From Fidelibacterota bacterium (GTDB taxonomy: Bacteria > Fidelibacterota > Marinisomatia > Marinisomatales > TCS55): DNA of 64,000 bases. Within the stretch, counting starts at the first letter, position 1, and the number at the start of each line of letters is the position of its first letter. Below, piece by piece: positions 1,369 to 41,960 of this stretch. The notes beneath the pieces are model-generated. The model did not search any database. It saw only the letters and a program-made list of their open reading frames with translations, and was not told where the DNA came from. Location: NCBI GenBank assembly GCA_004124385.1, contig SCKN01000001.1, positions 402,606 through 466,605 of the forward strand, written 5' to 3'. The position numbers and the translations under genes are program-made.

Positions 1369-3795
1369 TTAATCTTCTAAATGGAGCAAGTAAGTTTCAT
1401 CCACCAAAACTTCACGAGCTTTACTACCGGTAAAGGGACCGACAACTGCAATCTGTTCCATCTGATCCATGAGTCGTGCTGCGCGCGAATATCCAACTTT
1501 TAGGCGACGTTGTATGAGTGATATAGATCCTTGCTGGTGAGTAACCACTAGACGAATAGCTTCATATAATAATTCATCTTTATCGCTGTCTACTCCACCA
1601 TCTACTCCATTACCATCAAGAAGCTGACCTTCACGAATACTGGGCAGAATTAATTCTGTAGCTTTTGGTTGATCTTGAATATGTTCCATAAGTGCTTCAA
1701 TTTCTTCCAACGATAAAAATGCATTATGCAAACGAATCGGATCAGATGCTCCTGATCCTAGATAAAGCATATCACCCCTGCCGATCAATTTTTCAGCTCC
1801 CATTATATCAATAATTACGCGGGAGTCAATTTTACTGGCTACCTGGAATGCAATTCTTGATGGGAAGTTGGCCTTGATCAAACCGGTGATTACATCAACA
1901 GACGGTCGCTGTGTGGCAATAACCAAGTGGATACCAACCGCTCTTGCCAATTGAGCCAGACGGGCAATGGGCGCTTCCACTTCTCGGGCATTCAGCATCA
2001 TCAGATCTGCCAATTCATCCACAACTACGACGATAAAAGGCATGATCGCTTCACCGTTGCCTTGCATCTTTTTATTGTATTCACCGATGTTGCGCACCAC
2101 TGCGTCGGCTAGTATATCATAACGTCTGCCCATTTCACGCTCTACAGCCCGCAGAGCGTATACTGCGTTCTCTACAGATGTAACTATCGGTTCATCTATA
2201 TCTTCCATTGATAATAGATGATATCCTTCCAATGCACGATATAAAGACATTTCAACTTTTTTAGGATCTATAATAACAAACTTTAATTCATCGGGAGTGG
2301 CACTATATAACAAGCTGCAAATGATTGAATTTAAACAGACAGATTTCCCTGATCCTGTCGTTCCTGCAATAAGCAAATGAGGCATATCAGCTAAATCAAG
2401 AGTTGCGATTTCACCGGTTGTATTTTTTCCGATCGCTAAATTTAGTTTGGATTCAGAATTTGCAAATTTTTCTGAATTGATAACTGATTTAAAATACACA
2501 GTGGCGGGATTGCGATTTGGGATTTCTATTCCAACAGAAGATTTACCCGGAATGGGCGCTATTACTCGAACACGGCTGGCTTCCATCACTCTGGCAAGAT
2601 CATCTGAAAGTTGGACAAATTTATTGACACGAACACCTTCATCTGGCTCTACTTCAAATAAGGTGATAATAGGTCCCGGACTTACATTAACGACCTTACC
2701 TTTAACACCAAATGTTAATAAGGATTGTGTTAAAAAATTTGCACGTTCGACTAGCTCATCGCGACTCATTGTATCAGACACTGTTACAGGAGAAGCTAAT
2801 AAATCGGATGAGGGTAATTGGTATTCGCGCTTCGGCTGTTGTCTTTCGGACACTTCATCCAAATTAATTTCATCCTCTTCAACCATTTCACCCACTTCAA
2901 TATTTTCATCTACATTTTCTTCAGGTAGCTCTGATTGTTCAGCAGGTATTTCTGATTGATCATCTTTTTCATCCTGAAGCGCTTCTACACTATTTTCAGC
3001 TTCATCCTTCTCTATAAATTTTTCTGGCTGCTCGTCACTTTCATCGGTCGAAATATATGATGGAGCAGGTGTCGCTCCGGCATAATTCGGAGTTTCATCT
3101 TCTTGCTCAATTTCTTCCCCAATAAGTTCATCTTCTTCCAGCGTAGGGAATGATTCTTCTTCCTCATGTTGAGCATCTATTTTATTCAGTAAATCCTGTG
3201 TATGTTTTCGTTTGGCTTCTTCAGTTGCTTCAATTTCTTTTTTTAGTTTTTGATCTTGTCGTTTATTCTTAAATGTGTTGCCTAGTTTTTTCAAAGGTTC
3301 ATATAAACTGAATTCAAAATAGCCGCGTATCATAACCAACCACAAAGCGATGAGCAAAATCGTCGTGCCGATTATTCCCAAAAAGCTATACATGAAATTG
3401 GCAAGATTTCCACCAACAAGTCCGCTTGCAGTAAAATCCAAACCTGAACGATCATGCAATTCGATTTCTACAAGGCCTATTGTAACAGATAAAAGTACAC
3501 TAGCGCCAACAGCATAACCGGCAATTCGATTGAAAGATTTTAATTCTTTCTGACTGAAACACAACCAGCCCCAGATTAAACCCAATATGGGAAATAAAAA
3601 TGAGGGATAGCCAAACAGAAACTTGATGAAGAAATATGAAAGGTATACTCCGAGAATTCCCAAAGGATTTTCAACTTGAACATTTTGAGAGATACCCGGA
3701 TCTTCACTAGGATTGTATCCTATAAGGCTGATTAGCACCAACAACGAAGTTGTTAGGGTAAGAATACCAAGTATTTCTAGGCGTCTGTCTTTCAA
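1369..3795 (-). CDS. ftsK: DNA translocase FtsK/SpoIIIE
   Basis: FtsK pumps chromosomal DNA through the division septum and activates XerCD resolution. Numbered from the upstream TTG at 3834, the protein has four TM segments within residues 20-170. A highly acidic linker spans roughly 205-340, followed by the motor. The Walker A is GTTGSGKS (491-498) and the Walker B is VVVDELAD (603-610). The C-terminal winged-helix gamma domain that reads KOPS is at about 755-815. I prefer a second TTG at 3795, because it forms a 4-nt TTGA overlap with the upstream epimerase stop and gives 808 residues. The TTG at 3834 would overlap that gene by 43 bp. The overall length is normal for the family. Confidence 0.95.
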   Translation of the reverse strand: MKDRRLEILGILTLTTSLLVLISLIGYNPSEDPGISQNVQVENPLGILGVYLSYFFIKFLFGYPSFLFPILGLIWGWLCFSQKELKSFNRIAGYAVGASVLLSVTIGLVEIELHDRSGLDFTASGLVGGNLANFMYSFLGIIGTTILLIALWLVMIRGYFEFSLYEPLKKLGNTFKNKRQDQKLKKEIEATEEAKRKHTQDLLNKIDAQHEEEESFPTLEEDELIGEEIEQEDETPNYAGATPAPSYISTDESDEQPEKFIEKDEAENSVEALQDEKDDQSEIPAEQSELPEENVDENIEVGEMVEEDEINLDEVSERQQPKREYQLPSSDLLASPVTVSDTMSRDELVERANFLTQSLLTFGVKGKVVNVSPGPIITLFEVEPDEGVRVNKFVQLSDDLARVMEASRVRVIAPIPGKSSVGIEIPNRNPATVYFKSVINSEKFANSESKLNLAIGKNTTGEIATLDLADMPHLLIAGTTGSGKSVCLNSIICSLLYSATPDELKFVIIDPKKVEMSLYRALEGYHLLSMEDIDEPIVTSVENAVYALRAVEREMGRRYDILADAVVRNIGEYNKKMQGNGEAIMPFIVVVVDELADLMMLNAREVEAPIARLAQLARAVGIHLVIATQRPSVDVITGLIKANFPSRIAFQVASKIDSRVIIDIMGAEKLIGRGDMLYLGSGASDPIRLHNAFLSLEEIEALMEHIQDQPKATELILPSIREGQLLDGNGVDGGVDSDKDELLYEAIRLVVTHQQGSISLIQRRLKVGYSRAARLMDQMEQIAVVGPFTGSKAREVLVDETYLLHLED

Positions 3796-4763
3796 AATAG
3801 CTGGGGATATTCCGTTTTCACGGTTCTGAACCAATCAACAAATTGGACAATTCCATCATAAAGATGAGTTGATGGAGAATAATCAAGTCGAGATTCTGCT
3901 CGAGATATATCAGCATATGTGCGCTGAACATCGCCGGAAGGGAGATCGTACTCATCAAGCACGGGCACTTTTCCGGTAACGTCACTGATTGTGGATACCA
4001 GATCAGCCAATTTTACAGGTTCAGAGTTTCCGAGGTTGTATATCATGAAATCATCCTTTGACTTCAACGCAGCAAGTATACCACCTATGATGTCATCAAT
4101 GTAAGTATAATCTCGCGCTGTGGAACCATCGCCAAAAAAAGGCAATGGAGCGTCATTCAATAAAAGGCGAACAAATTTATGGATAGCCATCTCCGGCCGT
4201 TGGCGAGGGCCGTATACAGTAAAAAATCTTAAACAAATAGTTGGTATTTCATATAAGTGGGAATATGTAAAACAAAGTTCCTCGCCCATTTTTTTGGTCG
4301 TTCCGTATGGAGAAATTTGCTGATCCACCATATCCATTTCTGAAAATGGGATTTTATCATTATTTCCATACACTGATGAGGATGATGCAAAAATGAATTT
4401 TTGAATTTTATTCCTCTTCATTTCTTCCAATAGATTTTGAGTACCATTTATATTCACATCCGTATAATGCAAAGGATCATCCAAAGAAGGTCTAACACCT
4501 GCCATGGCAGCTAAATGAATGACAGTTTCAAATTTATATGAGGAAAAAACGTTACTCAAAAATGATCTGTCCCGTATATCGCCTTTATGAAATGAATAAC
4601 GTTTATAATCAAGATGACGTTTCTGATTAATTAATTTAATCTCTGGATTATAGAAATTATTCAAATTATCAACACAAACAACCTGGTTACGTTGACTCAA
4701 TAATTTATCTATAAGATGTGATCCAATGAATCCACAACCGCCCGTTACTAAAATCGTACTCAT
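3792..4763 (-). CDS. NAD-dependent epimerase (UDP-glucuronate 4-epimerase-like)
   Basis: This 323-residue extended short-chain dehydrogenase begins with the NAD-binding glycine motif TGGCGFIGSH. It carries the catalytic SSSSVYG serine/threonine region and the YGTTKK tyrosine-lysine pair. The AAMAGVRPSLDDP segment and FFTVYGPRQRPEMA are characteristic of UDP-glucuronate/UDP-glucose 4-epimerases that act on nucleotide sugars for surface polysaccharides. The exact substrate cannot be read from sequence. The start overlaps the gcvT stop by 4 bp and the stop overlaps the probable ftsK start by 4 bp, so it sits in one transcription unit with unrelated housekeeping genes. Confidence 0.85.
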   Translation of the reverse strand: MSTILVTGGCGFIGSHLIDKLLSQRNQVVCVDNLNNFYNPEIKLINQKRHLDYKRYSFHKGDIRDRSFLSNVFSSYKFETVIHLAAMAGVRPSLDDPLHYTDVNINGTQNLLEEMKRNKIQKFIFASSSSVYGNNDKIPFSEMDMVDQQISPYGTTKKMGEELCFTYSHLYEIPTICLRFFTVYGPRQRPEMAIHKFVRLLLNDAPLPFFGDGSTARDYTYIDDIIGGILAALKSKDDFMIYNLGNSEPVKLADLVSTISDVTGKVPVLDEYDLPSGDVQRTYADISRAESRLDYSPSTHLYDGIVQFVDWFRTVKTEYPQLF

Positions 4764-39353: not shown

Positions 39354-39587
39354 TCAGTCAATAACATCCAATCGAGCACGTTTACCACCTTCTTTTGCAT
39401 TCACAGCAAAAACAAGTGTGCGAATCGCAGAAATATTGCGACCGCGTTTGCCGATTACTTTTCCATAATCACCTTCACCTACAGTCAATTCAAAAATGAT
39501 TTGCTGTTCAGTTTCAATTGCGGTCACCTGAACTTCTTCGGGTTTATCCACTAACTTTTTAACAACTAACTCGATAATTTCCTGCAT
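39354..39587 (-). CDS. khpA: KH-domain RNA-binding protein KhpA
   Basis: This 77-residue protein is a single KH domain with the RNA-binding loop VIGKRGRNISAIRTLV. It matches YlqC/KhpA in length and position between rpsP and rimM. In Gram-positives KhpA works with KhpB in small-RNA and cell-division control. The role in other phyla is unclear. An AGGAGA-like ribosome site precedes it (minus strand at ~39593). Confidence 0.93.
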   Translation of the reverse strand: MQEIIELVVKKLVDKPEEVQVTAIETEQQIIFELTVGEGDYGKVIGKRGRNISAIRTLVFAVNAKEGGKRARLDVID

Positions 39588-39605: not shown

Positions 39606-40619
39606 TTATTTGTCGCTTTTATTTTCCGTATTCTTATCAGATGATTCATCTGCTTCTTGTTCTGGTTTGGCTACTTCTTCTGTGGTTTCTTCTGCAATTT
39701 CCTCTACTGGTTCTTCTTCTTTTACTTCATCTTCAGGTTTCTCGGCTCCGGATGTTTTTTCTTCTACGCCTGTTTCAGCTTCAGGTTCATCTTTTTCTTC
39801 TAAAGGCTCTTCTTCAGTTTCAGAACTTTCATCAGACGTTTCTTCAACTGGTTCTTCAACTGGTTCTTCTACTACTACAACTTCTTCATCAGGAGTCTCT
39901 TCAACCGTATCGGCTGGAGCTTCATCTACAGAATCTTCAATAGGCTTATTCTCTTCATCAGCTGATTTTTCTTCTTTTACTTCTGATTCAGGTTCTTCTG
40001 CCTCTGATGTTTCTTCATCAGCCTCTTTTTCTTCTGTAGGCTCTTCTTTAGTTTGAGTACTTTCATCAGATATTTCTTCAGCAGAAGCTTCTACTTCTAC
40101 AACTTCTTCTGACTCTGATGTTTCTTCTCCGTCTGTAGATTCAGTCGTTGCTTCTTCGGTTACGGTTTCAGTCTCATCCGCAGACGCTTCTTTGACTTCA
40201 TCCGCAGCAGCCGTTTCTGATTCTTTTTCAGCCACTTTTTGTTTTTCTTCTGCTTTATTTGATGCTTTATCAGTCCGTCGTTTTTCTACTTCTACCCGTT
40301 CAAGAGCCCATTTCTTCATTTCTTTTTCAACTGCTTTTTCATCTAAACCCTGACGAATTAAGTGCCAGCGATAGGTTAATCCGGTGCGTTTTAATAGATT
40401 GTGAGCTGTTTCTGTTGTTTGGGCACCTTCTTTTAGCCAATGTATAATTCGCTCATCGTTAAGTGCAAAATTCTTTTCATCATTTCGTTCGAGAGGATTA
40501 AACCAACCCAATTGCTCAATTGCAGCTCCATCGCGGCGTGATCGTTCATCCATCACCACCAAGCGATAAAAAGGTCTGTTTCTGCGTCCAATTCGTTTCA
40601 GTCTTATTTTCGTAGCCAA
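39606..40619 (-). CDS. rpsP: 30S ribosomal protein S16 with a long acidic C-terminal tail
   Basis: Residues 1-82 are a normal S16 core, with MATKIRLKRIGRRNRPFYRL and FNPLERNDEKNF. S16 is needed for 30S assembly. A helical extension runs to ~120. Residues 121-337 are then low-complexity E, D, S, T, A and P: the tail is about 2.5 times the core length. Within the tail, residues 185-217 and 263-302 are diverged copies (DES-TQT-KEEP...EVKEE versus DES-SET-EEEP...EVKEE) about 234 nt apart in DNA. Frame and stop are intact. FCB-group S16 proteins often have extensions, but I recall them as shorter. Confidence 0.93.
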   Translation of the reverse strand: MATKIRLKRIGRRNRPFYRLVVMDERSRRDGAAIEQLGWFNPLERNDEKNFALNDERIIHWLKEGAQTTETAHNLLKRTGLTYRWHLIRQGLDEKAVEKEMKKWALERVEVEKRRTDKASNKAEEKQKVAEKESETAAADEVKEASADETETVTEEATTESTDGEETSESEEVVEVEASAEEISDESTQTKEEPTEEKEADEETSEAEEPESEVKEEKSADEENKPIEDSVDEAPADTVEETPDEEVVVVEEPVEEPVEETSDESSETEEEPLEEKDEPEAETGVEEKTSGAEKPEDEVKEEEPVEEIAEETTEEVAKPEQEADESSDKNTENKSDK

Positions 40620-40631
40620 GATAGTCTCCTT

Positions 40632-41960
40632 TTAGCTTATTCCCATAAAATTACCCATTGGCATCTTGCCGGGTTTCATTTTTCCAAATTGTTTCATCAT
40701 TTTTTTCATTTGCGCAAATTGTTTCAATAGCTGATTCACTTCTTGCAAAGAACGACCAGAACCGAGAGAGATTCGTTTCCGTCTGCTGCCATCGATTAAG
40801 TTAGGCTTTCTACGTTCTGATGGCGTCATGGAATTGATAATGGCTTCTGTCCATAATAGTTGACGATCGTCCATATCCATCCCTTTCAACATTTTGCGAT
40901 TAATACCAGGCATCATTCCCATAAGTTGTTGGAGTGATCCCATTTTTTTTAGCTGCATTAACTGCTGCTGAAAATCTTCTAAATTAAATTCATTGCCACG
41001 CAATTTCTTTTCCAGCTTGGCAACTTCTATTTCATCTGTAACAAGTTCTGCTTTTTCAACCAATGAAATTACATCTCCAAAGCCCAAAATCCGATCAGCC
41101 ATCTGTTTAGGATTAAAGGGTTCCAACCCATCCATTTTTTCTGAAACTCCGGCAAATTTAATGGGAGTTCCAGTCACTTGCCGAATTGAAACAGCAGCTC
41201 CTCCTCGGGCATCTCCATCCAGCTTCGTCAGAATGGTGCCGGTCAAGGGCAAAGCTTCTGAAAATGCTTTAGCAGATGTAACAGCATCTTGCCCGGTCAT
41301 ACTATCTGCAACAAAAAGAATTTCATTCGGTTTTACTTCATCCCAAATATGCTGAATCTCGTTCATCATTTCACCATCAATATGAAGTCGACCGGCAGTG
41401 TCAAGAATGACAATATCTACTTTTTCACTTTTTGCTTTGGCAACAGCATTAACACAAATCGCCACAGGATCTCCAAGGCCCTCATCATAAACAGGAACAT
41501 CAATTTGCCGACCCAAAGATTGCAATTGCTCAATCGCAGCTGGACGGTATACATCTGCAGCAACCATTAAGACTTTCTTATTTTGATTCGTAAACATTTT
41601 GGCTAATTTTGCACACGTTGTTGTTTTTCCGGACCCTTGAAGTCCCGCCATCAAAATGACAGATGGTTTACCGTTTAAATCTATTTCAGCCGTTTCATCA
41701 CCCAGAACATGTATTAATTCTTCATAAATAATTTTAATAAATTGCTCACCCGGTTTTATTGACTTCAGGACTTTGGTTCCTTCAGCTTTAACTTTTACAT
41801 GTGTAATAAAATCACGAGCCACTTGTAAATTCACATCCGCTTCCAAAAGGACGCGACGAATCTCTCGCGATGTCTCCTGGATATTCGTATCTGTAATTTT
41901 CCCCAACCCACGTAAGCGACGGAATATTGTGTCGAATCTATCTGTTATTTGTTCAAACAT
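40632..41960 (-). CDS. ffh: Signal recognition particle protein Ffh
   Basis: Ffh binds signal peptides and 4.5S RNA and targets ribosomes to the membrane through FtsY. The 442-residue protein has the N domain (1-85) and the G domain with P-loop GLQGSGKT (106-113), DTAGRLHID and TKLDGDARGG. A methionine-rich M domain ends it (GMMPGINRKMLKGMD; KKMMKQFGKMKPGKMPMG). It heads the ribosomal-protein unit, 12 bp before rpsP. Confidence 0.97.
   Translation of the reverse strand: MFEQITDRFDTIFRRLRGLGKITDTNIQETSREIRRVLLEADVNLQVARDFITHVKVKAEGTKVLKSIKPGEQFIKIIYEELIHVLGDETAEIDLNGKPSVILMAGLQGSGKTTTCAKLAKMFTNQNKKVLMVAADVYRPAAIEQLQSLGRQIDVPVYDEGLGDPVAICVNAVAKAKSEKVDIVILDTAGRLHIDGEMMNEIQHIWDEVKPNEILFVADSMTGQDAVTSAKAFSEALPLTGTILTKLDGDARGGAAVSIRQVTGTPIKFAGVSEKMDGLEPFNPKQMADRILGFGDVISLVEKAELVTDEIEVAKLEKKLRGNEFNLEDFQQQLMQLKKMGSLQQLMGMMPGINRKMLKGMDMDDRQLLWTEAIINSMTPSERRKPNLIDGSRRKRISLGSGRSLQEVNQLLKQFAQMKKMMKQFGKMKPGKMPMGNFMGIS

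Follow-up and report, generated by a model that had tools for sequence, protein, structure and literature searches.

The gene at positions 39,606 to 40,619 (minus strand) of the window, the whole 64,000-nucleotide stretch of DNA that was analyzed, encodes an ordinary ribosomal protein bS16 with a lineage-wide two-part C-terminal extension. Small size and a basic charge are the norm for ribosomal proteins. The distal part of this extension is an acidic tail that, on comparative sequence evidence, is kept acidic by selection while its sequence and length drift. The extension may serve, with a probability of about 0.5, as a disordered, polyanionic bristle that would be anchored to the 30S subunit by a helix and act by bulk charge.

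The frame, read directly from the sequence, is open from a TTG start to a TAA stop and encodes 337 aa, with the ribosome-binding site AAAAGGAG just upstream of the start. The protein matches Pfam Ribosomal_S16 (PF00886) over residues 9 to 69 with 86.6 bits (cutoff, 27) and NCBIfam TIGR00002 with 100.2 bits (cutoff, 45.3), and the frame and these scores bear out the preliminary description of a real, intact S16. The TTG is separated from the upstream stop codon by just four codons. Across the phylum (loci L001 to L098), the apparent rpsP starts are TTG in 75 cases and GTG in 13, together 88 of 92, and ATG in 3. A profile search of the whole 2.09-Mb genome found S16 as a single copy, which rules out a second one. 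Fusion with another domain is also ruled out, as the tail matches no Pfam family, and weak NCBIfam matches to T2SS_GspB and NlpC_P60, far under their cutoffs, were rejected as compositional. The gene order ffh, rpsP, KH-domain gene, rimM, trmD, and rplS is that of the usual trmD operon, with the genes other than rpsP identified from their translations and not by a family-library run. The lineage is FCB, as proposed earlier; the source lineage of the window S16 is "Candidatus Neomarinimicrobiota," and, among named relatives, its S16 is closest to that of a Neomarinimicrobiota metagenome-assembled genome (MAG), with 66% identity over residues 1 to 122.

The S16 protein consists of a core, a predicted helical region, and a long tail, the coordinates of which are listed in the table. 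An AlphaFold model built from nine sequences shows the S16 fold followed by one helix at residues 94 to 146 (pLDDT about 94 to 97) and, from residue 151 onward, no secondary structure (pLDDT about 43 to 57 in blocks of ten). The start of the extension, previously described as a helix or linker, is thus given by the model as a predicted helix. Residues 83 to 146 are charge balanced, with a net charge of 0. Over 95 phylum sequences, W85 is conserved in 73, H86 in 82, L87 in 91, E100 in 80, K103 in 76, and W104 in 88, and this strong conservation indicates that residues 83 to 108 form a real module. The tail has 45% D/E and a net charge of -73, so the strongly acidic character noted in the preliminary description holds, but the disordered acidic part comprises 191 residues rather than the approximately 215 claimed. 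The whole protein has a pI of 4.26 and a net charge of -67, with a core pI of 10.5. Among the non-overlapping ORFs of the window, the tail contains the most acidic 100-residue stretch; the second most acidic is the strongly acidic linker of an FtsK/SpoIIIE translocase (positions 1369 to 3834, minus strand), which is ordinary.

Features of the window S16 gene and its surroundings, with the basis of each assignment
Feature	Position	Strand	Basis
Shine-Dalgarno-like AAAAGGAG, 5' of the rpsP TTG	40625..40633 (approximate)	-	sequence read directly
rpsP core, residues 1-82, bS16 fold	40374..40619	-	PF00886, TIGR00002, model pLDDT 75-97 in blocks of ten
Extension, residues 83-146: W85-H86-L87 ... E100..K103-W104 module, then long predicted helix	40182..40373	-	phylum residue counts, model
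Acidic tail, residues 147-337, predicted disordered	39609..40181	-	pLDDT and composition
Internal repeat copy 1, about residues 171-209	39993..40110	-	repeat search, 72% identity, spacing 234 nt; codon-shuffle test
Internal repeat copy 2, about residues 249-287	39759..39876	-	repeat search; codon-shuffle test
Downstream KH-domain gene, KhpA-like, with its own AAGGAG site	39354..39587	-	sequence and translations

S16 sequences were obtained from 152 of the 175 phylum genomes. In the 80 complete, N-free frames used for the length survey, the protein ranges from 149 to 461 aa (median, 238); all 80 extend beyond residue 146, and reversion to an S16 of 82 to 100 aa was found in none of them. Frames from the same genus are 317, 337, 359, 433, and 461 aa long, with one more, of 332 aa, partly masked by N. 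The preliminary description had raised the case of close relatives ending at residues 100 to 150 with a frameshift in the window copy, and the same-genus frames of 317 to 461 aa speak against it. A pseudogene, a frameshift, or an assembly error is ruled out by the long frames in the sampled genus members and in the 80 phylum members. Tail charge was surveyed in the 76 S16 proteins with at least 14 residues beyond residue 146: 71 tails are net negative, the median acid excess is 0.32 per residue, and the excess is at least 0.15 per residue in 62. Five tails lack a net negative charge, and four more are weakly acidic; L044, L046, L048, and L050 form one group with mixed-charge K/E tails. Inspection by eye revealed no tail motif shared beyond the genus. 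As far as the sampled sequences indicate, the S16 tail is a phylum-wide trait, neither a local accident nor a frameshift. A phylum with mostly long acidic S16 tails that appear to be selected for charge but not for sequence is a clean natural case in which to study the role of disordered polyanions on ribosomes, and these tails should be trimmed from concatenated ribosomal protein trees.

The tail of the window S16 contains an ungapped repeat of 118 nt at 72% identity with a spacing of 234 nt. The best gapped local DNA self-alignment scores 86, compared with 38.8 ± 5.5 (maximum, 58) in 200 codon shuffles, and the diverged copies about 234 nt apart suggested earlier are therefore genuine. Duplications beyond the codon-shuffle null (z > 3) were detected in 28 of 63 phylum tails, with unit sizes that differ between lineages; L021, from the same genus as the window genome, carries a 53-residue unit in three copies. 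These significant, lineage-specific duplications indicate that the tails turn over by in-frame duplication, and the expectation that S16 length varies like a repeat was likewise borne out. The repeat offsets are multiples of three in all 28 cases, which is weak alone, since codon periodicity biases the non-significant tails likewise. In L015, L016, L030, and L088, the 3' end of rpsP is basic and apparently frame-shifted, through either sequencing error in the repeats or a tolerated frameshift. MAG frames in the S16 tail repeat may be error-prone.

Between close relatives, the dN/dS of the tail is mostly 0.1 to 0.6, compared with 0 to 0.15 for the core, and it is near 0.8 to 1.0 in two pairs whose tails are weakly acidic or of mixed charge. 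Codon rates were estimated from 600 aligned tail codons in six close pairs, with an assumed transition bias of 3 and symmetrized directions. Exchange between D and E proceeds at 1.4 times the synonymous rate. The corresponding values are 0.16 for acid to uncharged (the slowest class), 0.47 for acid to basic, and 0.59 for other amino acid changes. In gapped pairs, part of the acid retention may come from the alignment of E to E. Since D-E exchange is free and acidity is lost about four times more slowly than synonymous changes accumulate, acidity rather than sequence appears to be under selection. Acidic runs of at least four residues are about fourfold depleted relative to within-tail shuffles (29 versus 122 expected), and runs of two are enriched (787 versus 452), although these counts are not independent, given the repeated units and the relatedness of the genomes. 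In the window tail alone, the longest acidic run is 3, whereas shuffling gives a mean of 6.0 (P = 0.004). Low-complexity expansion and function had been posed as alternatives in the preliminary description; the tail does turn over by duplication, but the two are not mutually exclusive, since selection appears to retain acidity.

The window S16 tail is a longer, more extreme version of the S16 tails that Bacteroidota sequences and structures had already revealed. The Bacteroidota-type bS16 (NCBIfam NF011094/PRK14521, 186 aa) likewise has the S16 core, an HL...W helix region, and an Ala/Glu-rich tail, but S16 proteins of this phylum are more acidic and reach about two and a half times its length. 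The window protein has the helical module after the core and the acidic tail typical of PRK14521, its residues 1 to 183 align with chain c of PDB 9i5v, and it scores 105.9 bits, under the equivalog cutoff of 209. In Bacteroidota ribosomes, 118 or 97 of 192 bS16 residues are modeled in Porphyromonas gingivalis (PDB 9i5v/9i5x) and 85 of 188 in Flavobacterium johnsoniae (PDB 7jil), and a tail left mostly unmodeled in these cryo-electron microscopy structures from two organisms is consistent with a disordered tail. A Foldseek search of the window S16 model against the PDB gave matches essentially to the core. Actinobacterial bS16 proteins (Cutibacterium acnes, PDB 8crx/8cwo; Mycobacterium smegmatis, PDB 5o5j) also carry a C-terminal extension beyond residue 82; that of C. 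acnes, of about 65 residues, contacts uS4 and accompanies a short h17 of the 16S rRNA (PMC10085706), whereas h17 is full length in the family of the window genome. NCBIfam PRK14520, which probably represents the actinobacterial type, gives 93 bits against a cutoff of 165. Acidic E/A/P-rich S16 tails also occur in KSB1, Gemmatimonadales, and Alphaproteobacteria (Pelagibacteraceae and Sphingomonas), in proteins of 187 to 250 aa. The alphaproteobacterial linker after the core lacks the WHL...KW module, unlike that of the window phylum, which suggests that these tails are convergent. In most of the sampled Firmicutes, Spirochaetes, and Synergistetes, S16 ends at 83 to 91 aa. A search of the available literature found no paper on S16 acidic tails.

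In the proposed bristle, the helical region at residues 83 to 146 would anchor to, or leave, the body of the 30S subunit close to bS16 and uS4 and carry the acidic tail into the solvent, where the tail may offset the basic charge of the core before and during early 30S assembly, repel nucleic acid and other ribosomes, and keep the S16 protein and the subunit soluble. Tail length and sequence would be free to drift because bulk charge alone would matter. The preservation of charge while sequence and length drift suggests that the tail acts electrostatically in a general way and is not a specific binding site. Several findings weigh against the bristle: the threefold range of total S16 length within the phylum, with a far larger range for the tail, speaks against a task that depends on length; five of the 76 tails lack a net negative charge and four more are weakly acidic; and two pairs have a tail dN/dS near 0.8 to 1.0. 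Among about 30 ribosomal proteins inspected in the S10-spc-alpha and S6 regions, acidic C-termini besides that of S16 were found only in bS6 and, weakly, in bL17, which indicates that an acidic tail is not a general habit of the ribosomal proteins of this genome. The tail of bS6 (L111:1327-1776, own genome) is similar in lying on a 30S protein, but it has about 30 residues and occupies another 30S site. In the assembly of the 30S subunit, bS16 enters once uS4, uS17, and bS20 are in place and drives the later steps (PMC5591316). A more specific and rather doubtful version is that the tail is a built-in polyanionic 30S assembly chaperone, a disordered domain selected for charge and not for sequence on a protein that acts early in assembly. 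It would keep basic ribosomal proteins or rRNA from misbinding, and it would be phylum-wide here and have arisen separately in several other phyla. The main rival to the bristle is tolerated expansion under compositional constraint only, which is a real possibility, though not the favored one: E-rich, repeat-prone DNA would duplicate in frame at a harmless, solvent-exposed terminus without a useful role, with selection purging only harmful residues (basic, hydrophobic, or stops). The wide length range, the lineage specificity of the duplications, the mixed-charge tails with dN/dS near 1, and the few frames with apparently shifted, basic ends would all fit such an expansion. However, it accounts poorly for the tail in 80 of 80 complete frames, none of which has returned to 82 to 100 aa, and for the slowed loss of acidity beside free D-E exchange; as acid to uncharged is the slowest class, selection for charge seems to be needed beyond the exclusion of basic residues. 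The data favor selection for charge, and any benefit of the tail is putative.

A docking arm, in which the tail binds a specific basic partner such as a ribosomal protein, an assembly factor, or a nucleoid or RNA-binding protein, is improbable. The 65-aa extension of C. acnes bS16 binds uS4 (PMC10085706), and the conserved module at residues 83 to 108 may dock comparably, but such docking is a better match for the helix module than for the acidic tail. Tails from different genera share no motif visible by eye, which makes a sequence-specific docking site unlikely and leaves the basic partner suggested in the preliminary description unsupported. A candidate partner, uL5 of the window genome (L059:12091-12807), is extended at its N terminus by roughly 55 Lys-rich residues, but it sits on the other subunit. 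Control of translation, with the acidic nascent chain slowing or destabilizing the ribosome and so limiting S16 synthesis (intrinsic ribosome destabilization), is very improbable. The rarity of acidic runs of at least four and the enrichment of runs of two look as if hard-to-translate runs were avoided, but such avoidance points to minimizing the effect, not using it. In addition, EttA-dependent pausing reportedly requires that the acidic residues be encoded in roughly the first 30 codons (PMC11282234), whereas the S16 tail starts after residue 146. Least credible is rRNA compensation, as reported for C. acnes bS16 (PMC10085706), in which the extension would replace a shortened 16S h17 by protein-protein contact. 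Ten 16S sequences from the window genome's family (relatives, the own-genome 16S being absent from the assembly, and including one probable contaminant, L104) have an h17 of 62 nt, compared with 61 in Escherichia coli, and h10, far from being shorter, exceeds the E. coli length by about 10 nt. With h17 of E. coli length in the family, compensation of the Cutibacterium type is not supported. The L104 sequence (16S from G003) is strongly unlike those of the other family members and probably derives from a contaminating contig in the MAG. An annotated 16S copy in an E. coli chromosome (L192; NZ_CP091836.1, 1798480-1799999) falls about 22 nt short of the E. coli length in its h17 region and is possibly foreign or a mis-assembly.
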